From the NCBI GenBank assembly GCA_017453205.1, contig JAFTKO010000006.1:1-59790 (forward strand): DNA of 59,790 nt, in the 5' to 3' direction. The notes beneath the pieces were generated by a model. That model searched no databases and was not told the DNA's origin. It worked only from the letters and a program-made list of their open reading frames with translations. Positions 2,875-16,820 of the stretch are shown piece by piece. This DNA is from Clostridia bacterium. GTDB lineage: Bacteria; Bacillota; Clostridia; Oscillospirales; CAG-272. How positions within the stretch are numbered: the first letter of the stretch is position 1; each line of letters opens with the position of its first letter. Both the position numbers and the translations under genes were made by a program.

Positions 2875-3654
2875 TTGGATATTCAAGTATTAGTTGCCAC
2901 CATGCATCAGACAGATCATTCGTTACTTGAAAAAATGAATATTAAAACAGATGCAATCATTGGCAATCAATGTGATCATATTGCCATTGAAGCTTTTGAA
3001 TGGAATGGTAATAATATCACCTATTTAAATTTTGCCGAACGCGGTGTTGGTTTAAATCGAAATAATGCATTAATGAGAGCATCTGCTGAGATCTGTCTTT
3101 TTGCTGATGATGATGTAGTATATTACGATAACTATGCAGAAATCATTGAAAAAGAGTTTATTGAGAATCCAAAAGCAGATGTTATTGTGTTTAATATGAA
3201 ATGGTCCCGAAACGGTGTTGATTTACGTGATTGTGTTCATAAAAAAGGATTTATAGGCAGAAAAAAAGCAAGCTCCTATGGCACCTATCTAATAGGATTT
3301 CGTTCTGCACGCATTAAAGCGAAAAACATTGTGTTTCATAGAATGTTTGGCGGTGGAACTGAGTATAGTTGCGGTGAGGATACAATTTTTTTACAGGATT
3401 GTATAAAAAAAGGACTTAAAGTATATAGAACAACTTCAACGATCGGCATCGTTTATCATGGCGAATCCACATGGTTTAAAGGTTATACCGATAAGTTTTT
3501 TTATGATAAAGGGGTGCTTTATAAATATATATATCCTTTATTGGCTAAACCGCTTTCTCTTTATCACGTTATAAAACACAGAAAAATGTATTCAAATTTT
3601 GGTATAAAAAAGGCATTCATTCAAATGTGGAAAGGAACAAAAGTTAAATTTTAA
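2875..3654 (+). CDS. GT-A glycosyltransferase, family 2-like
   Basis: This 259-residue protein has the GT-A features GVGLNRNNALMRA (about residues 58-70) and the metal-binding ICLFADDDVVYY (about 73-84), followed by a GGGTEYSCGEDTIFL segment typical of the acceptor half. The start is TTG at 2875. It is chosen because GGGAGGT at 2862-2868 lies six bases upstream and no ATG is suitably placed. The likely role is addition of a sugar to the growing repeat unit. The C-terminal 60 residues are basic and hydrophobic and could contact the membrane. The gene is AT-rich and belongs to the same block as LicD and TagD. Confidence 0.82.
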   Translation: MDIQVLVATMHQTDHSLLEKMNIKTDAIIGNQCDHIAIEAFEWNGNNITYLNFAERGVGLNRNNALMRASAEICLFADDDVVYYDNYAEIIEKEFIENPKADVIVFNMKWSRNGVDLRDCVHKKGFIGRKKASSYGTYLIGFRSARIKAKNIVFHRMFGGGTEYSCGEDTIFLQDCIKKGLKVYRTTSTIGIVYHGESTWFKGYTDKFFYDKGVLYKYIYPLLAKPLSLYHVIKHRKMYSNFGIKKAFIQMWKGTKVKF

Positions 3655-3697
3655 GTTACGGCATGTTTTATTTTGTGGGCATATAGGAGATTAAACT

Positions 3698-4747
3698 TTG
3701 CAGACATATATCATTTATATTGGGTTACTTATCTCAATTTGGTTACTTGCTAAAATTGCTGATAAAAAAAACAAAAAAGCTTTTTTAATATTAGCAATTA
3801 TCATTTTATCTTTTGTAGCAGGATTTCGAGCATATTCCGTTGGAATAGATACGATAAACTACGATAATAAGTTTTCTTTGATAGCCAATGGAGACTTGGA
3901 ATATGCCTATGGTCTTGAAGAGGGCTTTAAATATTTGTGTTTAGTTCTATTAAAGATATGTAATAGTAGTACTTTTTTATTTGTTATTTTTGCTACGATT
4001 ACCAATGCATGCGTTTTATTACGTATGTGGGATTTTAGGCACATGTCATCTCTTGGCTGTATGGTTGTTTGTTACTATATCGGCTTTTACTTTATGACAA
4101 TGAATGTAATGCGTCAGTTTTGTGCCATTGCCATTTTATTTTATTTTACAAGATTATTGTCGCAAGGAAAATATTTTAAATATTGTGCTGTAATTGCTAT
4201 TACCACATTGTGTTTTCACCAATCAGCTTTAATTGGTCTTGCTTTTTTAGTACTTGAAATATTTAATTGGAAAACCTTGTCACGTAAGCAAAAAAGAATA
4301 CTTATTTTTGGACTTTTTTTGATACCCTTTGCAAGCGTGATTGTATTTTCAACTTTTGAAGAATATCAACATTATTTTTCATCAATGGATTTAGATGTTG
4401 GTTTTATGTTGCCGTTGAAAATAATATTCTTTATGGTAACCGTTATCCTATCCGGTGCAAAGAACAAGTTTAAAAATAATAACAATGAAACCCTTAGCGT
4501 AAGTTTATACTATTTATTGGGATTATTGATAACATGTCTCGGTTACGCATTTACTTTTATGGATAGAATAGGTTGGTATTTTTATATTTTTGAGGGCGTT
4601 TATATGGGAATCGTTTTGCGTAACGCTTCTAAATCCAACAAAATATTCTACAGTTTTTGTTTGTTATTTCTGATGGGTTATTCTTTTGTGAATATTTTGA
4701 TGAATGGGTCACAAGGTGTAATTCCTTATTCATTTATTTGGAATTAA
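3698..4747 (+). CDS. EpsG/Wzy-like polysaccharide polymerase, polytopic membrane protein
   Basis: This 349-residue protein has about ten hydrophobic segments. Residues 40-56 carry FVAGFRAYSVGIDTINY, the hallmark of the EpsG family (PF14897), which is grouped with the O-antigen polymerases. By position among glycosyltransferases and a flippase it is the best candidate for the polymerase joining lipid-linked repeat units on the outer membrane face. The TTG start is supported by AGGAGA at 3685-3690 with seven bases between. Codon use is extremely AT-rich. Individual Wzy-type proteins are too divergent to predict the linkage formed. Confidence 0.85.
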   Translation: MQTYIIYIGLLISIWLLAKIADKKNKKAFLILAIIILSFVAGFRAYSVGIDTINYDNKFSLIANGDLEYAYGLEEGFKYLCLVLLKICNSSTFLFVIFATITNACVLLRMWDFRHMSSLGCMVVCYYIGFYFMTMNVMRQFCAIAILFYFTRLLSQGKYFKYCAVIAITTLCFHQSALIGLAFLVLEIFNWKTLSRKQKRILIFGLFLIPFASVIVFSTFEEYQHYFSSMDLDVGFMLPLKIIFFMVTVILSGAKNKFKNNNNETLSVSLYYLLGLLITCLGYAFTFMDRIGWYFYIFEGVYMGIVLRNASKSNKIFYSFCLLFLMGYSFVNILMNGSQGVIPYSFIWN

Positions 4748-5761: not shown

Positions 5762-5796
5762 ATCAACTATGTAACAAATTGGAAGAAGGCTTTTTA

Positions 5797-7251
5797 GTGA
5801 GTAAAAATTCAATTTCAAAAGGGTTCATATGGAAACTCCTCGAACGCTTTGGCGTATCGGGAATCCAATTCATATTACAAATCATACTGGCGAGGTTGCT
5901 CGATCCCGCGCATTACGGTGTTTTATCGATTATGGTCATTTTTACCACGCTCGCCAATGTATTTATACAAAACGGCTTTAATACCGCACTCATCCAAAAC
6001 AAAGATGTCGATGAGGATGATTACTCATCTGTCTTTTGGGTATCGCTTGGAATTGCAGGTGCGTTGTATGCGCTGATCTTCTTTGCGGCACCTTTGATCG
6101 GCTCGTTCTATGAAATGCCGGATATTGTTGCCCCGTTGCGTGTGCTTGCCTTGATGTTATTCCCGGGCGCACTGAACTCGGTACAGCTTGCAAAGGTCAG
6201 CCGAGAAATGGACTTCCGTAAGGTGTTTTATTCCAATATTGGCGCTGTAATTGTATCCGGTAGTGTTGGAATTGCCATAGCCTTGCTTGGCGGCGGTCTT
6301 TGGGCGCTTGTTGCGCAAAGCATGTTGAATGTATTTGTTGCTTGCATTGTGATGCGCTTTACGGTCAAACTGAAGCTGCGGTTAAAATGTAACTTTCATC
6401 GTGTTAAAATTCTGTTTGCTTTTGGTTGGAAATTACTTGTTTCAAGTCTGATCGATACATTATATCAAGATTTACGCAGTCTTGTGATAGGAAAAAAGTA
6501 CGATTCATCTACGCTTGGATATTACAATCGCGGAAAGCAATTTCCGCAATTTATGGTAAATGCTATCAACGGAGCCGTACAAAGCGTGATGTTACCTGCG
6601 ATGTCGGCAAAGCAGGATGACAAAGCACAGGTAAAGGCGATGATGCGAAACTCTATTACTATGAGTGCATATGTGATCTTTCCGATGATGGCAGGGCTTG
6701 CCGGGGTGGCTACTCCGTTGGTACAATTGCTGTTGACGGACAAGTGGTTGCCGTGTGTTCCGTTTTTGCAGATCTACTGTTTTTCTTTTGCGTTCTATCC
6801 GGTACATTCCTGCAATCTGCAAGCGATCAACGCAGTCGGACGCAGCGATGTGTTCCTAAAATTGGAGATCATTAAAAAAAGCTATGGATTGATCGCATTG
6901 ATCATTGCAGTTTTCTGCTTTGATTCACCGATTGCCATTGCGATGACAGGTATTTTTACCACGGTAATCAGTTGTTTTGTAAATTCTTATCCCAACAAAA
7001 AGCTGATCAACTACTCATATTTTGAACAGATGCGGGATATCCTGCCTTCCTTTGCGGCATCCTTGGTGATGTTTGGAGTGGTGTTGGCAGTAGGAATGCT
7101 TCCGCTGAGTCCGATTTTGTTGTTGCTTTTGCAGATCATAACAGGCATTGCGGTCTATGTGGCAATTTCTGCTATTACTAAAATGAAACCGTATTTGACA
7201 GTATTGACGATGTTAAAAACTATGCTGAGAAGAAAAAAGGGGTTATCATAA
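5797..7251 (+). CDS. Polysaccharide flippase of the MOP superfamily (Wzx/RfbX-like)
   Basis: This membrane protein of about 484 residues has roughly 12-14 hydrophobic segments. The N-terminal pattern (GFIWKLLERFGVSGIQFILQ, then ILARLLDPAHYGVLSIM) is typical of MOP-family exporters such as Wzx and TuaB. The family flips undecaprenyl-linked repeat units across the membrane. I prefer the GTG at 5797 over the TTG at 5779, because GGAAGAAGG at 5781-5789 is then a ribosome-binding site at normal spacing, and the family usually begins close to this point. Base composition is clearly less AT-rich than in the preceding six genes. The stop overlaps the next start by one base, so translation may be coupled. 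Confidence 0.92.
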   Translation: MSKNSISKGFIWKLLERFGVSGIQFILQIILARLLDPAHYGVLSIMVIFTTLANVFIQNGFNTALIQNKDVDEDDYSSVFWVSLGIAGALYALIFFAAPLIGSFYEMPDIVAPLRVLALMLFPGALNSVQLAKVSREMDFRKVFYSNIGAVIVSGSVGIAIALLGGGLWALVAQSMLNVFVACIVMRFTVKLKLRLKCNFHRVKILFAFGWKLLVSSLIDTLYQDLRSLVIGKKYDSSTLGYYNRGKQFPQFMVNAINGAVQSVMLPAMSAKQDDKAQVKAMMRNSITMSAYVIFPMMAGLAGVATPLVQLLLTDKWLPCVPFLQIYCFSFAFYPVHSCNLQAINAVGRSDVFLKLEIIKKSYGLIALIIAVFCFDSPIAIAMTGIFTTVISCFVNSYPNKKLINYSYFEQMRDILPSFAASLVMFGVVLAVGMLPLSPILLLLLQIITGIAVYVAISAITKMKPYLTVLTMLKTMLRRKKGLS

Positions 7252-8453
7252 TGCAATCGAAAAAGAAAATACTATTGCTCGGCGGTTCCGCGCAGCAGGT
7301 GATTGCCATTGATAAGGCAAAGGAATTGGGTTATTACACGATTCTTTGTGACTTTTTGTCTGACAATCCGGGGCAGTATCATGCAGACAAGTTTTATCTT
7401 GTAAGCACGACCGATAAAGAAGCTATTTTAAAGGTTGCGGAAGAAGAAAAAATAGACGGCATTCTTGCTTACGCATCGGATCCTGCAGCTCCGACTGCGG
7501 CATATGTGGCTGAAAAGTTGGGACTTCCCGGCAATCCTTCTGAGTCTGTTGAGGTTTTATGTAATAAAGATCGGTTTCGTGAGTTCCTTTTCCAAAATGG
7601 ATTTCATGCGCCGATTGCTTGCGGATATACTTCCATTGAGCATGCATTGAAAGAAACGGACAAGTTTCGGTTACCTGTTATCGTAAAGCCCGTAGATTCT
7701 TCCGGAAGCAAGGGTGCCACAGTTCTTCATGATTGGGGCGGTTTGGAAAACGCATTGGAGTTTGCTTTCTCCTTTTCGAGAGGGCACAGGGTTATTATTG
7801 AAGAATTTATTGAAAAAAAACACCCGTACTTAATTGGTGGAGATATTTTCGTCATTGATGGTAGGATCGTTTTGTGGGGATTGTTAAATTGCCATAGAGA
7901 TCAAAATGTAAATCCTCTTGTTCCTGTTGGAAAGAGTTATCCGTTAGCTTTAGATGATTGCGATGTTCAATTGGTACATCAAACACTTCAAAAAATGGTG
8001 GATAAATTGCAGATTCGATCCGGTGCCATGAATGTGGAGTTGATCGTCGACAAGAACGATCGCGTATGGCCGATTGACGTAGGTCCTCGGAATGGCGGAA
8101 ATATGATTCCGGATCTGCTGGGAATGATATTCGACGTGGATGTGGTTGAAATGTCTGTAAAGGTGGCCATGGGTGAGAAGATCACATCAAATGTTTGTGT
8201 TGGAAAGCCTTTTTATGCGACGCATAATTTACACAGCAGTCAAAATGGAGCATTTGAGAAAATAGTATTTTCGGATGAAATTGAACAACACATTTTGAAG
8301 AAATGTATTTATAAAAAGCCCGGAGATAAGGTGGAATATTTTGACAATGCAGCAAAGGCGCTTGGGATTATTTTCTTGAAATTTGATAACAAACAAAAAA
8401 TGTTGAGTCATCTCGAACGCATTACAGATGAAATTCAAGTAATTTTGAAATAA
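7251..8453 (+). CDS. ATP-grasp ligase of unknown substrate (first of two)
   Basis: This is a 400-residue protein. It has a pre-ATP-grasp Rossmann-like domain (KILLLGGSAQQVIAIDKA), the lid segment VIVKPVDSSGSKG at 143-155 and the metal-binding end of the fold, MNVELIVD at 260-267 with IDVGPRNGG at 275-283 (E263, D277 and N281 as likely ligands). The ATP-grasp family joins a carboxylate, via an acyl phosphate, to an amine or thiol. Within a polysaccharide locus, next to a PLP-fold protein and a GNAT, I infer that it links an amino acid or other acid to a sugar amine or carboxylate. It is distinct from the ATP-grasp at 9962, not a tandem duplicate. The substrate is not predictable from the sequence. 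Confidence 0.88.
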   Translation: MQSKKKILLLGGSAQQVIAIDKAKELGYYTILCDFLSDNPGQYHADKFYLVSTTDKEAILKVAEEEKIDGILAYASDPAAPTAAYVAEKLGLPGNPSESVEVLCNKDRFREFLFQNGFHAPIACGYTSIEHALKETDKFRLPVIVKPVDSSGSKGATVLHDWGGLENALEFAFSFSRGHRVIIEEFIEKKHPYLIGGDIFVIDGRIVLWGLLNCHRDQNVNPLVPVGKSYPLALDDCDVQLVHQTLQKMVDKLQIRSGAMNVELIVDKNDRVWPIDVGPRNGGNMIPDLLGMIFDVDVVEMSVKVAMGEKITSNVCVGKPFYATHNLHSSQNGAFEKIVFSDEIEQHILKKCIYKKPGDKVEYFDNAAKALGIIFLKFDNKQKMLSHLERITDEIQVILK

Positions 8454-8467
8454 GGACACGCCTTTTT

Positions 8468-9415
8468 ATGAAAGAAATTGGTGGATATTTTGGCTTTGAA
8501 CAATTGATTAGCAACGAATATTACCCCGACTTGATTGCCGTAAATAATGCAAGAAACGCGTTGCTGTATTTGCTGAAAGCCAAGAAGATTAAAAAATTAT
8601 ACATTCCTTACTTTCTCTGTGATTCGGTTTCAAAGCTTTGTGACAGAGAGGGATATCGGTATGAATACTATCATATCGGAGAAGATTTTTTGCCGATTTT
8701 TGAAAAGTCTCTTTCCAAGGATGAGTATCTGTATATTGTCAATTTTTACGGTCAAATCAGCAATCAAAAAATATTGGATTTGAAAAAAATATATGGCAAT
8801 ATCATTTTTGATAATGTACAAGCCTTTTTTCAAAGACCGGTGCAGGGAATAGATACGATCTATTCCTGCCGTAAATTTTTCGGTGTGCCGGATGGCGGAT
8901 ATATTTCAACGACGGCAATTTTAGAAAAAGAGTTGCCGGTGGATATTTCCAAAGATCGTATGAAGCATATTTTAGGTCGCTTTGAGGGTGAGGCTTCGGA
9001 GTATTACGAGGATTTCAAATCAAATGATCGTGCTTTTGTAGAATTGGAGCTTCGACAAATGTCGGCACTTACGCATAACATTCTTGGTGCGATTGACTAT
9101 GATTTTGTTTGTGAAAGACGGAATAAAAATTATGCAATTTTAGAAAAGCATCTCGGAGAAAAAAACAAGCTTCATTTAGTTGTACCGACAGGTCCCTATT
9201 GTTATCCGTTTTATTGCGAGAACGGAATGGAGATAAAGAAACGGCTTGCAAAAGAAAAAATTTTTGTGGCAACGCTTTGGCCCAATGTATTGGATATGAA
9301 GGATTCATTGGAAAAGGATTATGCGGAAAATATTTTGCCGCTACCTTGTGATCAAAGATATCATGCCGACGATATGATACATATTGTGGAGGAGGTTGTG
9401 AAATGTATAAATTGA
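8468..9415 (+). CDS. Divergent PLP-dependent fold-type I protein, DegT/DnrJ-like, small
   Basis: This 315-residue protein is shorter than the usual 360-400 of sugar aminotransferases. It retains a recognisable fold-type I layout: AVNNARNALLYLL (about residues 24-36), an aspartate in IIFDNVQAF (D115) of the kind that pairs with the pyridine nitrogen, and SCRKFFGVPDGGY, in which K136 is the expected Schiff-base lysine. The C-terminal small domain is present but abbreviated. DegT-family members aminate keto-sugars. The low similarity, and the location between an ATP-grasp and a GNAT rather than beside rfbAB, leave open another PLP reaction or a non-sugar substrate. Its end overlaps the GNAT start by 13 bases. 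Confidence 0.72.
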   Translation: MKEIGGYFGFEQLISNEYYPDLIAVNNARNALLYLLKAKKIKKLYIPYFLCDSVSKLCDREGYRYEYYHIGEDFLPIFEKSLSKDEYLYIVNFYGQISNQKILDLKKIYGNIIFDNVQAFFQRPVQGIDTIYSCRKFFGVPDGGYISTTAILEKELPVDISKDRMKHILGRFEGEASEYYEDFKSNDRAFVELELRQMSALTHNILGAIDYDFVCERRNKNYAILEKHLGEKNKLHLVVPTGPYCYPFYCENGMEIKKRLAKEKIFVATLWPNVLDMKDSLEKDYAENILPLPCDQRYHADDMIHIVEEVVKCIN

Positions 9416-9948
9416 GAGAGCTCGAACGTGAGGATTTGAAAAAAATCAACAAGTGGAGAAATGATCCCAATTTGATTGCTTGTTTGGGAGCTCCGTATCG
9501 ATACATCAATGAAGACGTGGATCAAGAATGGTATGACAAGTATTTACATGCTAGAAGCAATTCGGTTAGATGTGCGATTGTTGACGAAGAAAAAGAAAAT
9601 GAGGTATTGGGTTTAATCAGTTTGTTGAACATCAACTATATCAACCGTACCGGTGAGTTACACATTATGATTGGCGGTTCCGAAAATCGCGGCAAAGGGA
9701 TAGGTACTTTTGCAGTTCGCGCCATGATTGCACATGCGTTTAACAACTTAAACTTGCATCGAATTGAACTTGGTGTTTTGGAAACCAATGCGGCAGCGCT
9801 TCGCTTATATGAAAAAACAGGTTTTGTAAGAGAAGGCGTAAAACGTAAATCGAATTACAAAAATGGAAAATATATTAACATGATTTTTATGGGATTGCTT
9901 AAGGAAGAATGTTCTATGGAAGCTTCTTTTAAATATGAAGAAATGTAA
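9403..9948 (+). CDS. GNAT family N-acetyltransferase (RimJ/RimL or WecD/PseH-like)
   Basis: This 181-residue protein has an N-terminal LRELEREDLKKINKWRND, the core strand GELHIMIGGSENRGKGIGT with the acetyl-CoA pyrophosphate-binding R96-G97-K98-G99-I100-G101, and the terminal LYEKTGFVREG of the RimJ/RimL-type branch. GNAT enzymes of this size in surface-polysaccharide loci (WecD, PseH) acetylate the amino group of a nucleotide-linked 4-amino sugar. With the dTDP-sugar aminotransferase nearby, acetylation or other acylation of a 4-amino-4,6-dideoxyhexose is the favoured role, by inference. The start lies inside the preceding gene, implying coupled translation of the module. Confidence 0.88.
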   Translation: MYKLRELEREDLKKINKWRNDPNLIACLGAPYRYINEDVDQEWYDKYLHARSNSVRCAIVDEEKENEVLGLISLLNINYINRTGELHIMIGGSENRGKGIGTFAVRAMIAHAFNNLNLHRIELGVLETNAAALRLYEKTGFVREGVKRKSNYKNGKYINMIFMGLLKEECSMEASFKYEEM

Positions 9949-9961
9949 GAGGGATGAGGGA

Positions 9962-11251
9962 ATGTTTGAACATTTGAAAGGAAAAAGATTATTATTTTTA
10001 GGAGCTATTCGTGCTCTTTGTGAACCGGTAAAGATAGCAAAAGAGATGGGGATATATACAATTGTCATTGATTACCTCCCTAATTCTCCGGCAAAGAAAG
10101 TTGCAGATAAATCATATTTGATTAGTACAACAGATATAGATGCGGTAGTTGAATTATGTAAAAATGAAAAAGTGGACGGAATTTTTACTGCTTTTATTGA
10201 TTCTATGTTACCATACGCAAGGGAAATTTGTGATCGTTTGGGGTTGCCGTTTTATGCATCTAAAGAACAAATTCAATTGTCTCTTGATAAAAACTTCTTT
10301 AAAGCGACTTGCCGCAAATTTGGCGTTCCTGTACCAAATGATTATACGGAAATGATTGCTCAAAATGGTTTTCATAGTAATAATATTGTTTTTCCTGTGA
10401 TTGTAAAACCAATTGACAGTAGTGGTGGCAGAGGAATTCGGATTTGCAACAATGCCGAAGAACTTCAAAGTGCGTATGAATACGCGCTTTCCATTTCTCC
10501 GAGTAAGAATGTACTGGTCGAAGAATATGTAGTTGGAGACGAAGTAACAGCTACATATACGATGAAAGATGGGGAAATTTCGCTTTCTTGTTTTAAAGAT
10601 AAACTTTTATCACATGACCATGAAAATATAACCTCGCAATCCGATGTTTTATTTTGCCCGTCATGCTATTTACCACTGTATATGAGTAATGTCAATGAAG
10701 TTGTTATTGATATGTTAAAAGGTATGCATGCAACAGATGGTAGTGTGTTCTTTCAAGGTATAGCCACTAAAGAAAGAATTGTATTGTTTGAATGCGGCTA
10801 TCGTCCTAATGGGGCTCATGATTATAGACATATATCTTATATTAATGGGATAAATTATTTAAAAATGATGATTGCCCATGCTTTAACGGGGAGAATGGAA
10901 GGATATGATTTGACTCAAGATTCCCCTAATTTTTCGGAATATATTTTGACGTATAATCTTTGGGCGCATGGTGGCGTTATAAATTCTCTTTCCGGACTAG
11001 ATGATGTATTAAAATTGGACAATGTAGTTTTGGCTGAATACGTACATGATGTTGGAGATGAAATTATTGATAATAATACACTATCCCAACGAGTTTTCCG
11101 CGCAGTCATTAAAGAAAAAGATATAAATAAAATTAGAGATACAGTGAATCAAATACAATCAACTGTAAAAGTAATAAATCAGTACGGAGAAAATATGTTA
11201 TATACTCCATTTGATGCAAATCGATTAATAGAAAGGTATATCTCAAAATGA
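9962..11251 (+). CDS. ATP-grasp ligase of unknown substrate (second of two)
   Basis: This protein of about 429 residues has GKRLLFLGAIRALCEPVKIA at the N-terminus, a SYLISTTDIDAVVEL pre-grasp segment and the lid motif VIVKPIDSSGGRG near 146-158. The ATG at 9962 is preferred over one at 9935, because AAGAGGG at 9947-9953 precedes it by eight bases and the earlier start would add a short non-conserved tail. A reduced FECGYRPNGAHDYRH segment replaces the canonical E/N metal-binding end, so the catalytic geometry may differ from the first ATP-grasp. The gene is more AT-rich than its 5' neighbours. It overlaps the following permease by four bases (ATGA), so the two products are probably made together. 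Confidence 0.85.
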   Translation: MFEHLKGKRLLFLGAIRALCEPVKIAKEMGIYTIVIDYLPNSPAKKVADKSYLISTTDIDAVVELCKNEKVDGIFTAFIDSMLPYAREICDRLGLPFYASKEQIQLSLDKNFFKATCRKFGVPVPNDYTEMIAQNGFHSNNIVFPVIVKPIDSSGGRGIRICNNAEELQSAYEYALSISPSKNVLVEEYVVGDEVTATYTMKDGEISLSCFKDKLLSHDHENITSQSDVLFCPSCYLPLYMSNVNEVVIDMLKGMHATDGSVFFQGIATKERIVLFECGYRPNGAHDYRHISYINGINYLKMMIAHALTGRMEGYDLTQDSPNFSEYILTYNLWAHGGVINSLSGLDDVLKLDNVVLAEYVHDVGDEIIDNNTLSQRVFRAVIKEKDINKIRDTVNQIQSTVKVINQYGENMLYTPFDANRLIERYISK

Positions 11252-12531
11252 CTCCCGCAATAATTAGTTTAATTATTTTAGTTGTATGTATAGTATTATT
11301 TATTACAAGGATTATACCCAATGCGGTTACAGCTTGCTTGGGATGTTTACTTTTTGCGCTTACAGGAGTATGCTCATTAGACAAGGCTTTTTCCGGTTTT
11401 TCCAACTCCACTGTTTTGTTGATGTTTGGTATGATGGTGGTTGGAATAGCTATGATGGATACCGGAGTTGCAAAGATAATCGGAAAATATGTTTCTAAAG
11501 TGGCTGCCGGTAATGAAAAGATGTTTATTTTGCTTGCAGGATTAGCCTCTGCAATCCTATCTACATTTTTGTCTAACACTGCGGTAATTTCAATTTTTCT
11601 TCCAATTATTGCTAGTGTAGCTCAATCCAATAGTAATATGAACCGTAAAAATCTCACACTTCCTGTTACCATGGGGGCTATGTTTGGTGGCGTGTGTACT
11701 TTGGTAGGCTCTACACCACAATTAACTGCAAACGGTATATTGTCCGAAATGACAGGAAAAGAATTGAAAATGTTTGATTTTTTATTGCCCGGCATTGTTT
11801 TTTGCGCTGTTTATTTGATTTATGCAGTTACAATTGGTCATAAAATGGGAAATCATGTTTGGGGAAATAAAGTTGTAGAGACTTTACAAGAAACGGAAGA
11901 TAACAATACAGCTGTTGCCCAAGAATTTACTATAAACAAGCCTAAAGTAGTTTTAATGATAGTTATTTTTTTAGTGACGATTATCATGTTTATAGGCGGC
12001 TGGATATCGACGGCAATGACGGCCATTATAGCTGCGTTATTGTGCATTATAACCGGGTGTACAAGCTATAAAAGTGTTCTTAAGAATATGGATTGGTCAG
12101 TTGTATTTATTCTTGCAGGATGTCTTGGAATTGCTGCCGGACTCACAAGTGGTGGGGCTGGAGAATTGATGTCTGAAGTTCTGTCCACTATTCTTAGTCC
12201 TAATATTCCTCCTATAATAATTTTTGCGATTTTTATTCTTGCGACCATGGTTATAAGTAATTTTATAACCAATTCTACTGCTGTTGTAATTGTTTTGCCG
12301 ATTGCACTTGCCTTTTGTAGCTCTCTTGCTCTCAATCCAATCACTTTTGCGTTAGGAATTGTTTATGCAGCAAATCTTACTTTTAGTACGCCTTTGGCAA
12401 ACGCACAAACTGCAATGACTTTGGTAGCAGGATATAAATTTTCAGATTACATTCGTTATACATGGTTATTGGATATTCTTGTTTTTGTTGCAATAGTTGT
12501 ATCGGTACCATTATTCTTTCCGCTTGTATAA
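11248..12531 (+). CDS. SLC13/DASS-type anion (dicarboxylate) transporter
   Basis: This is a 427-residue polytopic membrane protein with roughly 10-12 hydrophobic segments. Two SNT-type signatures are visible: LSTFLSNTAVISIFLP in the N-terminal half and SNFITNSTAVVIVLPIAL in the C-terminal half. These are the hairpin motifs that bind sodium and carboxylate in SLC13/DASS and related ion-transporter proteins. The family imports di- or tricarboxylates or sulfate. A transporter of this type inside a polysaccharide locus, translationally coupled to an ATP-grasp ligase through an ATGA overlap, suggests that it supplies or removes the acid handled by the ligase. That link is inference, and the true substrate is unknown. 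Confidence 0.87.
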   Translation: MTPAIISLIILVVCIVLFITRIIPNAVTACLGCLLFALTGVCSLDKAFSGFSNSTVLLMFGMMVVGIAMMDTGVAKIIGKYVSKVAAGNEKMFILLAGLASAILSTFLSNTAVISIFLPIIASVAQSNSNMNRKNLTLPVTMGAMFGGVCTLVGSTPQLTANGILSEMTGKELKMFDFLLPGIVFCAVYLIYAVTIGHKMGNHVWGNKVVETLQETEDNNTAVAQEFTINKPKVVLMIVIFLVTIIMFIGGWISTAMTAIIAALLCIITGCTSYKSVLKNMDWSVVFILAGCLGIAAGLTSGGAGELMSEVLSTILSPNIPPIIIFAIFILATMVISNFITNSTAVVIVLPIALAFCSSLALNPITFALGIVYAANLTFSTPLANAQTAMTLVAGYKFSDYIRYTWLLDILVFVAIVVSVPLFFPLV

Positions 12532-12553: not shown

Positions 12554-13654
12554 ATGTTAATCAACGTCACCCGCTCCTCAATGCCCACATACGAGGAATT
12601 TTGCGAGGAAATTAAAGAATTGTGGGACAGCCACTGGCTTACCAACATGGGAGCCAAGCACAAGCAGTTGGAGGCGGCGCTCAAGGAGTATTTACATACC
12701 CCAAACGTCACGCTTTATACCAACGGACATTTGGCACTGGAAAATGTTCTTGCTTCGATGAATCTTCCCAAAGGCGGGGAGGTTATCACCACACCGTTTA
12801 CCTTTGCTTCCACCACTCATGCCATCGTTCGCAACAGCTTGGTTCCCGTTTTCTGCGATGTCAATGATGTGGACTACACGATGGATGTAACCAAAATCGA
12901 AGCACTGATCACGGATAAGACCTGTGCGATTGTACCGGTTCATGTATACGGAAATATGTGTGATGTGGATGAGATCCAACGCATTGCGGACAAGCATGCT
13001 TTGAAAGTCATCTATGATGCCGCACATGCTTTCGGTGTTACATACAGAGGTGTCAGCTCTGCAAATTTTGGTGATGCCTCGATGTTCAGCTTCCATGCCA
13101 CCAAGGTATTTAACACGATCGAGGGCGGTGCCGTTTGCTATCCCGATGAGACCTTAGTACAGGTCCTCAATGATATGAAGAACTTTGGTATTCGCGGTCC
13201 CGAAGCCTGTGCTTATGTTGGCGGAAACGCGAAAATGAATGAGTTCCAAGCCGCAATGGGGCTTTGCAATTTGCGTCATTTGGACGAGGAATTGGCAAAA
13301 CGGAAAACCGTCGTTGAACATTACCGTAAAAGACTTTCCGGTGTGAAAGGAATCAAGCTTTGTACCGATCAAAAAGATGTCAAGTCGAATTACGCATATT
13401 TCCCGGTTGTGTTTGACGGATATCGGTATACACGTGATGAAATATACGGAATTTTGCGTGAGCAGAATATTATTGCGAGAAAGTATTTTTATCCCTTGAC
13501 AAACAGCTTTGAATGTTACCAAAATCTCGAAACTGCGGGTGCTGAAAAAACACCTGTGGCTCAATATCTTGCCGACCGTGTGTTGACATTACCTCTCTAT
13601 GCCGATTTGAGTGCAGAGGATATTGACCGTATTTGCGATATCATTTTAAATTAA
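12554..13654 (+). CDS. dTDP-4-keto-6-deoxyhexose aminotransferase, DegT/DnrJ/EryC1/StrS family
   Basis: This 366-residue protein is full length for the family. It shows LYTNGHLALENVL, TTPFTFASTTHAI, the PLP-pairing aspartate D155 in VIYDAAHAFG and the Schiff-base lysine K184 in FSFHATKVFNTIEGG. The overall pattern resembles VioA/FdtB-type enzymes, which use glutamate to aminate dTDP-4-keto or 3-keto-6-deoxyhexoses in the cytoplasm. rfbA and rfbB follow directly and would supply the keto-sugar; no rfbC or rfbD is visible. The product would be a dTDP-amino-dideoxyhexose such as viosamine or a 3-amino isomer; the position cannot be fixed from the sequence. Composition is close to the genome average here, unlike the AT-rich permease before it. 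Confidence 0.88.
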   Translation: MLINVTRSSMPTYEEFCEEIKELWDSHWLTNMGAKHKQLEAALKEYLHTPNVTLYTNGHLALENVLASMNLPKGGEVITTPFTFASTTHAIVRNSLVPVFCDVNDVDYTMDVTKIEALITDKTCAIVPVHVYGNMCDVDEIQRIADKHALKVIYDAAHAFGVTYRGVSSANFGDASMFSFHATKVFNTIEGGAVCYPDETLVQVLNDMKNFGIRGPEACAYVGGNAKMNEFQAAMGLCNLRHLDEELAKRKTVVEHYRKRLSGVKGIKLCTDQKDVKSNYAYFPVVFDGYRYTRDEIYGILREQNIIARKYFYPLTNSFECYQNLETAGAEKTPVAQYLADRVLTLPLYADLSAEDIDRICDIILN

Positions 13655-13684
13655 ACTTTTTTAATTTTTTGGAGGACTGAGCCC

Positions 13685-14572
13685 ATGAAAGGTATCATAC
13701 TCGCCGGTGGAGCCGGCACACGGCTATACCCCTTGACAATGGTAACATCAAAGCAGTTGTTACCGATCTATGACAAACCGATGATCTACTATCCGCTGTC
13801 TACGCTGATGCTGGCGGGCATCAAGGATATCTTGATCATCTCCACACCGACCGATCTCCCAAACTTTGAAAGATTGCTGGGTGACGGCTCGCAGTATGGT
13901 GTCAGTCTCTCTTACAAGGTCCAACCCTCCCCAGACGGGCTCGCTCAAGCGTTTATTCTCGGTGAGGAGTTTATCGGTAATGACGCTTGTGCAATGGTTC
14001 TCGGTGACAACATCTTCTATGGCAACGGCTTCGGAAAAACACTCCGTGCCGCTACCGAGAATGCCGAGAAAAACGGTCGTGCTACCGTGTTTGGCTACTA
14101 TGTCAATGATCCCGAGCGCTTCGGCATTGTGGAATTTGACTCTAACGGCAAAGCGATTTCCCTTGAAGAAAAACCGCAAAATCCGAAAAGCAATTATGCG
14201 GTCACAGGTCTGTATTTCTATCCCGCAGGTGTCAGCGCCAAAGCCAATCAAGTAAAGCCCTCAGCGAGAGGAGAACTTGAGATTACGACACTGAACGAGA
14301 TGTATTTGAATGAAGATATCCTTGATGTTCAGCTCCTCGGCAGAGGGTTCGCTTGGCTCGACACCGGCACGATGGACAGCCTTGCCGAAGCAACCGATTT
14401 TGTTCGTATGATTCAGAATCGTCAAGGCATTCAAATCTCTGCACCCGAAGAGATCGCATACAAAAACGGGTGGATCAATTGTGAAGAACTTTTGAAGTCG
14501 GCTGAGAAGTACGGAAAATCTCCCTATGGAGTACATCTTAAGAACGTCGCTGACGGCAAATTGCAGTATTAA
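13685..14572 (+). CDS. rfbA: Glucose-1-phosphate thymidylyltransferase
   Basis: This 295-residue protein is the standard length for RmlA. The nucleotide-binding signature [20 protein letters not shown] lies at residues 5-24, and [28 protein letters not shown] and [12 protein letters not shown] match conserved segments of the family. It makes dTDP-glucose from dTTP and glucose 1-phosphate. The ATG is preceded by GGAGGAC at 13672-13678. It lies between the DegT aminotransferase and rfbB in one operon, which points to a dTDP-6-deoxy-amino-sugar pathway for the polysaccharide. Confidence 0.96.
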
Positions 14573-14582
14573 GGAGGACATC

Positions 14583-15602
14583 ATGACTATCATTGTAACC
14601 GGAGGAGCCGGATTTATCGGCTCGAACTTTGTATATCACATGCTCGGGAAATATCCCGACTACCGCATTGTCTGCCTTGACTGCTTGACCTATGCGGGGA
14701 ATCTCTCCACCTTGGGGGAGGCTTTAAAGAACCCCAACTTCCGTTTTTGTAAGACCAATATCTGTGACAGAGAGGAAGTCTATCAGATTTTTGAAGAGGA
14801 AAATCCCGATATCGTTGTCAACTTTGCGGCGGAGAGCCATGTGGACCGTTCTATCGAAAATCCCGAGGTCTTTTTGCAGACCAATATTCTTGGAACTCAG
14901 GTCATGATGGACGCGTGCCGCAAGTATGGGAATATCCGCTACCATCAAGTATCCACCGATGAGGTTTACGGAGATCTGCCGCTTGATCGTCCCGATCTGT
15001 TCTTTACCGAGACGACACCCATCCATACAAGCAGCCCGTATTCGTCCTCGAAAGCAGGTGCCGACCTCTTGGTACAAGCTTACCACCGCACGTTCGGTTT
15101 GCCCGTGACCATCAGCCGTTGCTCGAATAACTATGGACCGTATCACTTCCCCGAGAAGTTGATTCCCTTAATGATTGCAAATGCGCTCAACGACAAGCCT
15201 CTGCCTGTGTACGGTAAGGGAGAGAATGTGCGCGATTGGCTGTATGTGGAGGATCATTGCAAGGCAATCGATTTGATCATTCACAACGGACGCATCGGAG
15301 AGGTCTACAATGTAGGCGGACACAATGAGATGGCGAATATCGACATCGTAAAGCTGATCTGCCAAAAGCTTGGGAAACCCGAGAGTCTGATCACTTATGT
15401 GGCAGACCGCAAGGGACATGACATGCGTTATGCGATTGATCCGACCAAGATCCACACCGAGCTCGGATGGTTGCCCGAGACCAAGTTCGCCGATGGTATT
15501 GACAAGACCATCGATTGGTACTTAACGCACAAGGATTGGTGGGAGACCATTATTTCCGGCGAGTACCGTAATTATTATCAGAAAATGTATGGGAATAGAT
15601 AA
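14583..15602 (+). CDS. rfbB: dTDP-glucose 4,6-dehydratase
   Basis: This is a 339-residue short-chain-dehydrogenase-type protein. The NAD-binding VTGGAGFIGSNF is at residues 5-16, the catalytic triad region HQVSTDEVYG contains T125-D126-E127, and the active-site YSSSK is at 153-157. It converts dTDP-glucose to dTDP-4-keto-6-deoxyglucose. The ATG at 14583 is chosen because AAGGAGGA lies just upstream at 14572-14579, and the protein then begins with the expected first beta strand. It follows rfbA by ten bases. A short hairpin, possibly a weak terminator, follows at 15613-15635. Confidence 0.96.
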   Translation: MTIIVTGGAGFIGSNFVYHMLGKYPDYRIVCLDCLTYAGNLSTLGEALKNPNFRFCKTNICDREEVYQIFEEENPDIVVNFAAESHVDRSIENPEVFLQTNILGTQVMMDACRKYGNIRYHQVSTDEVYGDLPLDRPDLFFTETTPIHTSSPYSSSKAGADLLVQAYHRTFGLPVTISRCSNNYGPYHFPEKLIPLMIANALNDKPLPVYGKGENVRDWLYVEDHCKAIDLIIHNGRIGEVYNVGGHNEMANIDIVKLICQKLGKPESLITYVADRKGHDMRYAIDPTKIHTELGWLPETKFADGIDKTIDWYLTHKDWWETIISGEYRNYYQKMYGNR

Positions 15603-15653: not shown

Positions 15654-16820
15654 ATGAACGAACAAGTCATCCATACATTGTTTGCGTTGGTCCGCAAGGT
15701 CATCTGTGACACGGAATTGTCGGAAGAGGTCAAGACCCAACTGACACCCGAAATGCTACCGCAGCTATATGCCATTTCCAAAGCACATGACATGGCGCAT
15801 ATCGTCGCCCAAGCCCTCGGTGATCTCGGATTGCTTGGCGATGATGAGATATCCGCAAAGCTCCAAAAGCAGCAGATGCTGGCGGTCTATCGATATCAGA
15901 AGATCAACTATGAATTGCAGCAGATCTGCCGGACATTGGAGGAAGCAAAAATTCCGTTCATTCCTCTCAAGGGCTCTGTAATCCGTCAATACTATCCCGC
16001 GCCTTGGATGAGAACAAGCTGTGATATCGACGTGCTGGTGCATGAGGAAGTGTTAGAAAAAACTGCCGATATATTAACTCAAAAATTAGCATATAAAAAC
16101 GAGGGAAAAAGCTCTCATGATATATCATTGTTTTCTCAAAGCGGTATTCATGTGGAGCTTCACTATGACACAGTTGAAGATGGTCGTGCGAGTAATGCCA
16201 ATCGTGTATTATCCAACCTGTGGAAATATACCATCCCTCAAAACGACGGTGGTGTACACCGGCTTCTAATTGATGAAATGTTCTATTTCTATCACATCGC
16301 GCACATGGCAAAACATTTTGAAGATGGCGGTTGCGGGATCCGTCCGTTCCTTGACCTTTGGATCTTGGAGCATCGCGTAGAGCATGATAAAACGGCGCGT
16401 GACGCGCTTTTAGAGAAAGGTGGGCTTCTTACCTTTGCCAATGCTTGCCGCAGTCTCTCGGCGGTTTGGTTCGATGCTACAGAATGCAACAAAATGACTG
16501 AGCAGATGCAAGCTTATATTCTAACCGGTGGTGTATACGGAAATTTGGACAACCGTGTGGCGGTTCATCAAAATAAAAAGGGCGGAAAAATTCGTTATGC
16601 GTTATCAAGAATTTTTCTCCCTTATGATACGATTAAATTTCATTATCCCATCCTCCAAAAGCACAAATGGCTGACACCGGTTATGGAGGTTCGACGCTGG
16701 TTTAAATTGCTGTTCAAAGGTAAGGTAAAGAGCTCTTTACATGAGCTGAATGTCAACAAATCGATGTCCGAGGAGCAAATAGAGAATACCGCCGATTTGC
16801 TTCAAAAATTGGGGTTATGA
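15654..16820 (+). CDS. Nucleotidyltransferase-fold protein of unknown function (PF14907-like)
   Basis: This 388-residue protein has a nucleotidyltransferase-fold signature around residues 104-126: PLKGSVIRQYYP followed by RTSCDIDVLV, then HDISLFSQSGIHVELHYDTV. This is the pattern of the uncharacterised nucleotidyltransferase family often found at the ends of surface-polysaccharide and lantibiotic-like loci. The transferred group and acceptor are unknown. It may be expressed from the rfb operon at reduced level because of the hairpin just upstream. GGAAGGAGC at 15640-15648 supports the ATG start. A strong bidirectional terminator follows, marking the end of the polysaccharide locus. Confidence 0.8.
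   Translation: MNEQVIHTLFALVRKVICDTELSEEVKTQLTPEMLPQLYAISKAHDMAHIVAQALGDLGLLGDDEISAKLQKQQMLAVYRYQKINYELQQICRTLEEAKIPFIPLKGSVIRQYYPAPWMRTSCDIDVLVHEEVLEKTADILTQKLAYKNEGKSSHDISLFSQSGIHVELHYDTVEDGRASNANRVLSNLWKYTIPQNDGGVHRLLIDEMFYFYHIAHMAKHFEDGGCGIRPFLDLWILEHRVEHDKTARDALLEKGGLLTFANACRSLSAVWFDATECNKMTEQMQAYILTGGVYGNLDNRVAVHQNKKGGKIRYALSRIFLPYDTIKFHYPILQKHKWLTPVMEVRRWFKLLFKGKVKSSLHELNVNKSMSEEQIENTADLLQKLGL

Follow-up and report, generated by a model that had tools for sequence, protein, structure and literature searches.

The window analysed here is the whole stretch of contig JAFTKO010000006.1 from a Clostridia bacterium, 59,790 nucleotides long. The following genes lie side by side near its start:

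5779..7251, + strand, Wzx-type flippase, directly 5' of AG1 (PF13440, 9.2e-94)
7251..8453, + strand, AG1, ATP-grasp ligase (PF02786 above cut-off; upstream-slot clade)
8468..9415, + strand, PLP protein of an unnamed family, predicted DegT-like sugar-aminotransferase fold
9403..9948, + strand, GNAT (PF13302)
9935..11251, + strand, AG2, second ATP-grasp (PF02786 above cut-off; downstream-slot clade)
11248..12531, + strand, SLC13/DASS permease (PF03600, 1.7e-56)
12554..13654, + strand, DegT sugar 4-aminotransferase, DesI/VioA-like (PF01041, 2.6e-99)
13685..14572, + strand, RmlA, glucose-1-phosphate thymidylyltransferase (TIGR01207, 465.6 bits, above cut-off)
14526..15602, + strand, RmlB, dTDP-glucose 4,6-dehydratase (TIGR01181, 486.5 bits, above cut-off)

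The five genes from AG1 to SLC13 had been predicted to be consecutive and tightly coupled, and they are. All five reading frames are intact, and three of the four junctions overlap, by 13 (PLP/GNAT), 14 (GNAT/AG2) and 4 bases (AG2/SLC13). The gap between AG1 and the PLP gene is 14 bases, while the wzx reading frame ends on the first base of AG1. The gene classes first assigned also agree with Pfam, which gives ATP-grasp for both ligases, GNAT, and CitMHS/Na_sulph_symp for the permease. The functional unit is wider than five genes, as DegT, rmlA and rmlB directly downstream (12554-15602) belong to it. A single further species of the genus shares the order AG1-PLP-GNAT-AG2-SLC13-DegT-RmlA-RmlB (L002; L121 of G024 and L092 are the same contig and were counted once). 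In locus L026 this order lacks AG1 and is interrupted by an additional ATPgrasp_ST gene. The full five-gene set was found only in the window and in that one species. Elsewhere the genes occur apart, the PLP gene being seen with AG1, with AG2, with a WbqC-like protein (PF08889) or with none of these. A single five-gene module, as proposed in the original prediction, is therefore rejected; the genes recombine across loci. The core is RmlA-RmlB-DegT with one ligase and the PLP protein, and the five genes are not a fixed unit.

The DegT protein matches PF01041 and adjoins rmlA and rmlB, as a DesI/VioA-type aminotransferase would. Its best NCBIfam match is TIGR04427 (DesI; 6e-85), which it hits with 285.7 bits where the cut-off is 650, and its best match in the PDB is 2po3, titled DesI. 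Judged from these sequence families, RmlA, RmlB and DegT should make dTDP-4-amino-4,6-dideoxy-D-glucose (Qui4N, viosamine).

AG1 and AG2 are both ATP-grasp proteins by PF02786 and by conserved positions, which we take to be the ATP-binding and Mg-binding residues. These are K106, K146, E184 and R280 in AG1 (28 of 28 proteins), and K119, K158, E196 and R290 (22 of 22) with E286 (21 of 22) in AG2. The two share 33% identity over 220 residues, and a tree of 53 rows places them in different clades, which rules out a simple duplication, as had been predicted. L-amino-acid ligases and PylC have the same fold and form amides with amino acids at the expense of ATP, as AG1 and AG2 would, but their curated cut-offs are missed: AG1 scores 22.3 bits against 29.4 for the LAL C-terminal domain 2 (PF18603, LAL_C2), and AG2 falls short of PylC TIGR03909. 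Unlike L-amino-acid ligases and PylC, AG1 and AG2 are set among genes for nucleotide-sugar synthesis. The product of the genes might instead be a small molecule or dipeptide in free form and not a glycan substituent, with SLC13 exporting or importing it. The faint likeness of AG1 to L-amino-acid ligases, with PDB 3vot among its matches, points that way, and pairs of ATP-grasp and PLP enzymes occur in peptide antibiotic clusters. We consider this very unlikely, since nucleotide-sugar, glycosyltransferase and wzx genes often adjoin, and the same PLP family is present in E. coli O-antigen clusters and in a Proteus cluster that is of this kind by its gene content.

The PLP protein was called divergent in the original prediction, and it has no Pfam family at E 0.001 and no NCBIfam match. 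At E 0.001 its homologue L088 likewise matches no Pfam family, so that PF01041 is missed by both. Homologues L031 and L082 have no Pfam match even at E 1, and the one match of L051 at E 1 is a zinc finger at chance level (E 0.1). Searches against PDB sequences at E 1, by phmmer and with a 58-row profile, returned nothing credible. The structural model, in contrast, has the sugar-aminotransferase fold of the DegT/DnrJ/EryC1/StrS family. Residues K136 and D115 are kept in 81 of 81 proteins, the patterns used to find the homologues having covered D115 and not K136. From the family pattern, we take these to be the Schiff-base lysine and the pyridine-binding aspartate, so the sequence appears to hold both residues expected of this family. 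The fold and the PLP lysine are thus shared with ArnB, DesI, DesV and WecE. The protein differs from them in identity (12–18% among the structural alignments listed), in escaping Pfam and in an N-terminal motif of its own, IGGY; it is also about 50 residues shorter than the DegT of the window.

We counted neighbours within 7 kb in 80 loci with a PLP homologue (the best 80 of 90), scoring as AG1 any ATP-grasp of more than 100 bits upstream of the PLP gene. AG1 was present in 27 of the 80 and WbqC in 36, both in none and neither in 17. By ligase set, AG1 alone occurred in 14 loci, AG1 with AG2 in 13, AG2 alone in 8, WbqC in 36, and none of the three in 9. Four loci were at first labelled as AG1 with WbqC through ATP-grasp matches of 23–32 bits, under the 100-bit limit. 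A distant upstream ATP-grasp in L069 was assigned by hand as AG2, and a very divergent downstream one in L007 was ignored in these counts, yet is among the 22 downstream ATP-grasp rows. DegT was found within 7 kb of the PLP gene in 61 of the same 80 loci and a homologue of the window's Wzx in 23, some loci ending at contig edges. Association with wzx, one of the questions raised by the original prediction for wzx/wzy, is therefore frequent and not constant.

In a tree of the PLP proteins, AG1 and WbqC changed at least eight times. Counting well-supported branches only, there were at least five changes for the WbqC label and at least six for AG1 (the short fragments L042 and L081 were left out, and the bootstrap had not settled). 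For example, Clostridium magnum, with AG1, groups with two clostridia that have WbqC (support 99/90). The mutual exclusion of AG1 and WbqC is rested on this tree count because a Fisher test treats related loci as independent. Next to the PLP protein and DegT, WbqC occupies the position that AG1 has elsewhere and, unlike AG1, is not detectably an ATP-grasp. One WbqC protein gave no match to PDB sequences at E 1, a 31-row profile gave only poor ones (best E 0.087), and Foldseek with a WbqC model gave no confident match in the PDB (best E 0.098). A likeness of its start, MQPYxxPYxGY, to pantothenate synthetase was considered and found no support. Excerpts of the literature term WbqC-domain proteins functionally uncharacterized (PMC5532660), and others describe WbqC as uncharacterised or as having a possible part in O-antigen production, or name it next to a DegT gene.

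Some loci have neither protein. Aminoacyl transferases are included in the FemAB-type family, and a gene of a FemAB-type cluster (one member tested with Pfam) is carried by 5 of the 17 loci with neither ligase, a point in favour of aminoacylation. Several findings count against the kit favoured below. L003 and L026, close relatives of the window by their PLP protein, have AG2 but lack both AG1 and WbqC in their surroundings. Nor is WbqC tied to the PLP protein across 398 sampled Bacillota genomes: of 15 stretches with WbqC, most of them taken with 1.5 kb on either side, 7 gave a DegT match and none a PLP match. Four sampled relatives of AG1 besides the window had DegT in three cases and a PLP match in two, one of them weak. 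In genome G302, AG1 and WbqC are about 15 kb apart, with no PLP match in the stretches covered. In favour of the kit, AG1 also adjoins DegT where no PLP match is seen, as WbqC does in E. coli O121 (below). This adjacency bears on another explanation, in which AG1 or AG2 amidates a uronic acid of the repeat unit and does not acylate Qui4N. Amides of uronic acids with amino acids are known in bacterial glycans, as described in part of PMC10609480. The part of the locus in the window, which meets the contig edge at the left, has by eye no gene for making a uronic acid, and AG1 keeps to DegT even without the PLP gene; we therefore think a uronic-acid amide quite unlikely. From the exchange of neighbours, AG1 probably takes the slot held by WbqC in other loci, and with the E. 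coli anchors below, either protein probably joins an amino acid to Qui4N.

Two E. coli O-antigens provide structural anchors. The first cluster, assigned to the O123/O186 type from the annotated wzx name, has the genes DegT-WbqC-[PLP homologue]-GNAT-MaoC, and its wbqC-PLP-GNAT stretch is present in 10 of 5426 E. coli genomes. We reached it through the neighbouring DegT-GT2 DNA of Proteus mirabilis; DNA searches with P. mirabilis wbqC-PLP and with the window module against E. coli gave no match. The P. mirabilis H63 serotype was sought as a further structural anchor and none was found. Like the window, the O123/O186 cluster combines rmlB-rmlA, wzx, DegT, a ligase candidate, the PLP family and GNAT. 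It differs in having WbqC for AG1, and MaoC (the cap being 3-hydroxybutyryl) for AG2 and SLC13, and in belonging to a Gram-negative O-antigen. The O123 O-antigen, with a structure reportedly related to Salmonella O58, carries N-[(S)-3-hydroxybutyryl]-D-alanyl on Qui4N according to an excerpt of PMC10609480. The second cluster, of E. coli O121 (O121/Shigella dysenteriae 7 O-antigen), has DegT-WbqC-GNAT and follows the same rmlB-rmlA-DegT-ligase-GNAT logic towards an N-acylated aminoacyl-Qui4N. It is unlike the window in three respects: there is no PLP match in the 28.6 kb covered, the residue is glycine, and WbqC is in the ligase slot. N-acetylglycyl-Qui4N is cited to the O121 structure in a portion of PMC3210612.

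The PLP enzyme is probably needed for (D-)alanine, by analogy, because the O123 type, with the PLP gene, carries D-alanyl and O121, without it, carries glycyl. The D-alanine assignment comes from one cluster type (O123/O186) and the glycine contrast from one (O121). Qui4N can also bear L-alanyl, for which the same portion of PMC3210612 cites Hafnia alvei 1205, so that alanine need not mean D-alanine.

The PLP protein could also be a second sugar aminotransferase that acts at a different carbon, either of the same nucleotide sugar or of a different one, with the ATP-grasps acylating a diamino sugar. The predicted fold, shared with ArnB, DesV, WecE and other sugar aminotransferases, and the frequency of DegT near the PLP gene are compatible with this. 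Against it, no 3,4-ketoisomerase is seen by eye among the window reading frames of at least 120 residues, in a locus inside which the contig starts. The listing in the excerpt of PMC10609480 gives only Qui4N, GlcNAc and L-QuiNAc as amino sugars of the O123 repeat, and QuiNAc is made via fnlA-qnlAB-type genes (PMC5560731, in part). Other annotated O123 genes can account for all three, which leaves the D-alanyl group without an enzyme, and we regard a second sugar aminotransferase as unlikely.

We therefore favour, with a probability of roughly 0.7, a kit that N-aminoacylates Qui4N at the nucleotide-sugar stage, ahead of its incorporation into a surface polysaccharide of the Wzx/Wzy type. RmlA, RmlB and DegT would make dTDP-Qui4N, a step established for these families. 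AG1, with ATP, would then attach an alanyl-type residue to the 4-amino group of dTDP-Qui4N through an amide bond, as WbqC would elsewhere; this step is drawn from the E. coli anchors and the ligase exchange, and we propose an amino acid or its keto-acid precursor as the substrate. The PLP enzyme would supply or finish the alanyl residue, its likeliest role being that of an aminotransferase that yields D-alanine, and would be missing where the residue is glycine. D-Alanine is already in cells for peptidoglycan, so a dedicated enzyme is not obviously needed, and this counts against the proposal.

The GNAT probably caps the attached amino acid by N-acylation (acetylation) of its free alpha-amino group. 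It comes after WbqC in O121 and after WbqC-PLP in the O123/O186 type, and scores 87.3 bits against the PseH type (TIGR03585), short of its cut-off of 93.1. AG2 and SLC13 look like an optional second acylation, with a capping acid or a second amino acid. The downstream ATP-grasps form subclades that follow their accessory genes. SLC13 accompanies 3 of 22, the window included, and the same three have GNAT and this AG2 subclade; it was not found within 7 kb of the other 19. The permease belongs to DASS/SLC13 by PF03600 (CitMHS, 192.2 bits) and lies below the cut-off of TIGR00785 dass (149.7 bits against 198.6). We propose that it brings in the acid used by AG2, which may add this acid or amino acid to give a short peptide-like side chain; this is the weakest step. 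The predicted amino-acid or peptide-like decoration of a glycan was thus largely right, through the linkage to dTDP-Qui4N and the O123/O186 cluster, while the single module behind it was not.

A bolder and rather unlikely version makes the PLP family a new aminotransferase that acts on an acyl group already bound to the sugar. Pyruvate, or a different keto acid, would be joined to dTDP-Qui4N by a ligase of the WbqC, ATP-grasp or FemAB type, and amination by the PLP enzyme would then turn it into D-alanyl in place, so that the amino acid is built on the sugar. WbqC would then be an unrecognised family of amide ligases, and the nucleotide sugar would receive a peptide side chain of two residues from AG1 and AG2.

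Amino acids on viosamine and similar sugars are already known from O-antigen structures. Among the open-access papers matched, in some cases the top-ranked entries listed, none was seen to identify the enzymes responsible for attaching them, and there was no account of WbqC function, of viosamine with an ATP-grasp, or of D-alanyl or glycyl transfer to Qui4N. The kit ties WbqC, the unnamed PLP family and AG1-type ATP-grasps, which are unassigned or generic families, to aminoacyl-sugar chemistry. It predicts from gene content that a ligase without the PLP gene gives a glycine-like residue and a ligase with it an alanine-like one, and that the cap is set by GNAT, MaoC, OCD or AG2. Such rules would help to predict serotype chemistry, and the proteins would offer enzymes for making aminoacyl sugars. 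The PLP family also reaches into other surroundings, which counts against the kit: in six Planococcus-group loci the gene stands without DegT, AG or WbqC nearby, and seven Lachnospiraceae/Erysipelotrichaceae loci have it in a different setting.

The window comprises the entire contig (C41) of genome G000, which is 73% complete. The polysaccharide locus occupies its left 17 kb and is cut by the left contig end. Pfam or NCBIfam matches give the order LicD, cytidylyltransferase, Wzx, AG1, GNAT, AG2, SLC13, DegT, RmlA, RmlB, and NTP_transf_5, with the PLP protein gene placed after AG1. A sugar transferase, three GT2-like glycosyltransferases, and an EpsG/Wzy-like membrane protein were recognized by eye in the same 17 kb. 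The central genes are:

7251-8453, AG1, the upstream ATP-grasp ligase
8468-9415, the PLP protein, outside Pfam and NCBIfam families, with a predicted sugar-aminotransferase-like fold
9403-9948, a GNAT
9935-11251, AG2, the second ATP-grasp
11248-12531, SLC13, a DASS permease
12554-15602, DegT, RmlA, and RmlB

The first five, which formed the original prediction, are all intact at these positions. Their tight coupling was also borne out: three of the four junctions overlap, by 13, 14, and 4 bases. Their G+C content is 34-41%, against 45-49% for DegT-RmlA-RmlB and 52% at 18000-59790, which fits a variable, imported locus. At 1467-2778, LicD adjoins the TagD-like cytidylyltransferase; this pair points to a phosphopolyol or phosphocholine-type group as a further substituent of the polysaccharide. 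Directly after rmlB (15654-16820) lies NTP_transf_5 (PF14907), an uncharacterised nucleotidyltransferase with homologues in loci L003 and L026.

The locus most likely works as follows. RmlA, RmlB, and DesI/VioA-type enzymes have established family-level activity, and RmlA, RmlB, and DegT would produce dTDP-Qui4N (Qui4N is 4-amino-4,6-dideoxy-D-glucose). AG1, standing in for WbqC (PF08889), would use ATP to form an amide between the Qui4N amine and an alanyl-type residue. The PLP enzyme would provide or complete this residue, with transamination to D-alanine as the simplest route. The GNAT would cap the α-amino group of the attached residue, and AG2 would add a second acyl group from an acid imported by SLC13. 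Every catalytic step of this scheme is inferred.

The PLP protein was matched in four of the 98 genomes searched: the window's own, G024 of the same genus (67% identity, on the same contig as locus L002), and two others (31% and 26%). Its neighbors within 7 kb were analyzed in the best 80 of 90 loci, using profiles built from the PLP loci themselves. Within these 80, a DegT sugar aminotransferase is present in 61, and the PLP gene is accompanied, mostly just upstream, by an AG1-type ATP-grasp in 27 and by a WbqC-family protein in 36 (one protein tested, 241.8 bits against PF08889). None of the 80 has both and 17 have neither; eight of the 17 carry a downstream ATP-grasp only, five a member of a FemAB-type cluster (that of L034 was tested, PF02388), and four none of these. 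L003 and L026, near relatives of the window's PLP protein, have neither AG1 nor WbqC nearby. Mapping AG1 and WbqC as labels onto an 83-protein PLP tree takes at least eight changes, so the two ligases have replaced each other repeatedly; well-supported branches alone force five changes for WbqC and six for AG1. Gene linkage, predicted fold, conservation, and the ligase swap are observed.

O-antigen loci offer clues to the attached residue. A Proteus mirabilis O-antigen-type locus (L082) contains a VioA-like DegT, GT2, WbqC, PLP, and an epimerase. (The 4.08-Mb P. mirabilis record NZ_OL790811.1 is labeled ‘plasmid’ but evidently represents a chromosome, given how large it is and which genes the stretch read contains.) Searching E. 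coli with the DegT-GT2 DNA of L082 gave two useful clusters. That of O121 has the order rmlB-rmlA-DegT-WbqC-GNAT-wzx, with no PLP match in the 28.6 kb read; 13 of the 5426 E. coli genomes carry its wbqC. The O121 structure is cited for Qui4N with N-acetylglycyl (PMC3210612), and N-acetylglycyl-Qui4N is listed for Shigella dysenteriae D7 (PMC10609480). The second cluster is rmlB-rmlA-wzx-DegT-WbqC-[hypothetical protein]-GNAT-MaoC, typed O123/O186 by its annotated wzx family (wzy is marked frameshifted in the record). The hypothetical protein scores 325 bits against the PLP profile, and the wbqC-PLP-GNAT stretch occurs in 10 of 5426 E. coli genomes. The O123 and O186 clusters are reported as 98-99.9% identical (PMC4732683), and the O123 O-antigen is listed with Qui4N bearing N-[(S)-3-hydroxybutyryl]-D-alanyl, GlcNAc, L-QuiNAc, and GlcNAc3OAc (PMC10609480). 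The rest of that cluster could account for Qui4N, L-QuiNAc, and, through GNAT plus MaoC, the hydroxybutyryl cap, so by elimination WbqC and the PLP protein would be responsible for the D-alanine. This D-alanine assignment draws on the one anchor; L-alanyl on Qui4N is also known, from Hafnia alvei 1205 (cited in PMC3210612). WbqC also adjoins DegT in published gene lists for a flagellar island of Dickeya (PMC9650423) and for Bacteroides thetaiotaomicron (PMC10434189). Both E. coli O39-type records viewed (L089, L090) have vioA annotated as frameshifted.

AG1 also lies beside DegT without a PLP match in Bacteroides finegoldii (L096), G302, and G244. Together with O121 (WbqC, no PLP match), these cases show that either ligase can occur apart from the PLP protein, which suits an enzyme also accepting glycine-like residues. 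In a sample of 398 Bacillota genomes, AG1 has four relatives at E 1e-60 besides the window's, three with DegT nearby and two with a PLP match, one of merely 113 bits. In G302, some 15 kb separate AG1 from WbqC, and PLP had no match in the stretches read; the mutual exclusion therefore holds for PLP loci, not whole genomes. WbqC occurs in 14 of the 398. The PLP protein had no match in the 15 WbqC stretches from these (mostly 1.5 kb flanks), nor in longer stretches from seven of the same genomes, and 7 of the 15 have a DegT match, so WbqC has wider uses. In a plasmid glycan cluster of Brachyspira hyodysenteriae (L095), an AG1 relative (6069-7268, 43% identity) is accompanied by a DegT and by three annotated ATP-grasp fold amidoligases.

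Upstream and downstream ATP-grasps form two sides of a 53-row tree, with L069_U and L007_D as exceptions. Among the 22 downstream genes, SLC13 and this GNAT go with a single subclade (window, L002, L026), and an ornithine-cyclodeaminase-type gene with a single other one (L004, L008, L017). This match of subclade and accessory gene suggests that the acid used by AG2 is set by the adjoining gene.

Glycans decorated with amino-acid-bearing Qui4N are already known. What appears to be a new form is the version with an ATP-grasp, together with the unnamed PLP family and the exchange of ligases. These functions were not found assigned in the literature searched, which covered few subscription journals, and earlier assignments may exist.

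The PLP gene also occurs in other settings. Near six Planococcus-group genes (L013, L015, L019, L020, L025, L028) no DegT, ATP-grasp, or WbqC was found, and four of the six stretches hold an RmlA-like match (48-65 bits); the gene may have a different use there, or its partners may lie elsewhere. Five of these (L013, L015, L019, L020, L028; Planococcus/Planomicrobium) share a conserved chromosomal setting with an alanine-dehydrogenase-type gene nearby and, in three, adjoining FemAB-type genes. In seven Lachnospiraceae/Erysipelotrichaceae loci (L027, L031, L032, L036, L037, L041, L045) the PLP gene accompanies a GT2 gene, with an AG2-like ATP-grasp in six and small membrane proteins in four; the GT2 is ArnC-like and the small proteins ArnE/ArnF-like by eye, a likeness that suggests modification on a lipid-linked sugar. 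A PLP homologue (41% identity) lies at 3532-4476 of MT838042.1, a 5.8-kb record labeled Bacteriophage sp., perhaps mislabeled bacterial DNA or a carried gene. Plasmid pLAU-OXA3 of E. coli (L086, 4525-13399) carries epimerase-rmlB-rmlA-wzx-DegT-GNAT-PALP-type PLP enzyme-ATP-grasp-GT, which is the same logic with a different PLP family; its ATP-grasp gene occurs in four E. coli plasmids in all, and the gene set given is that of pLAU-OXA3.
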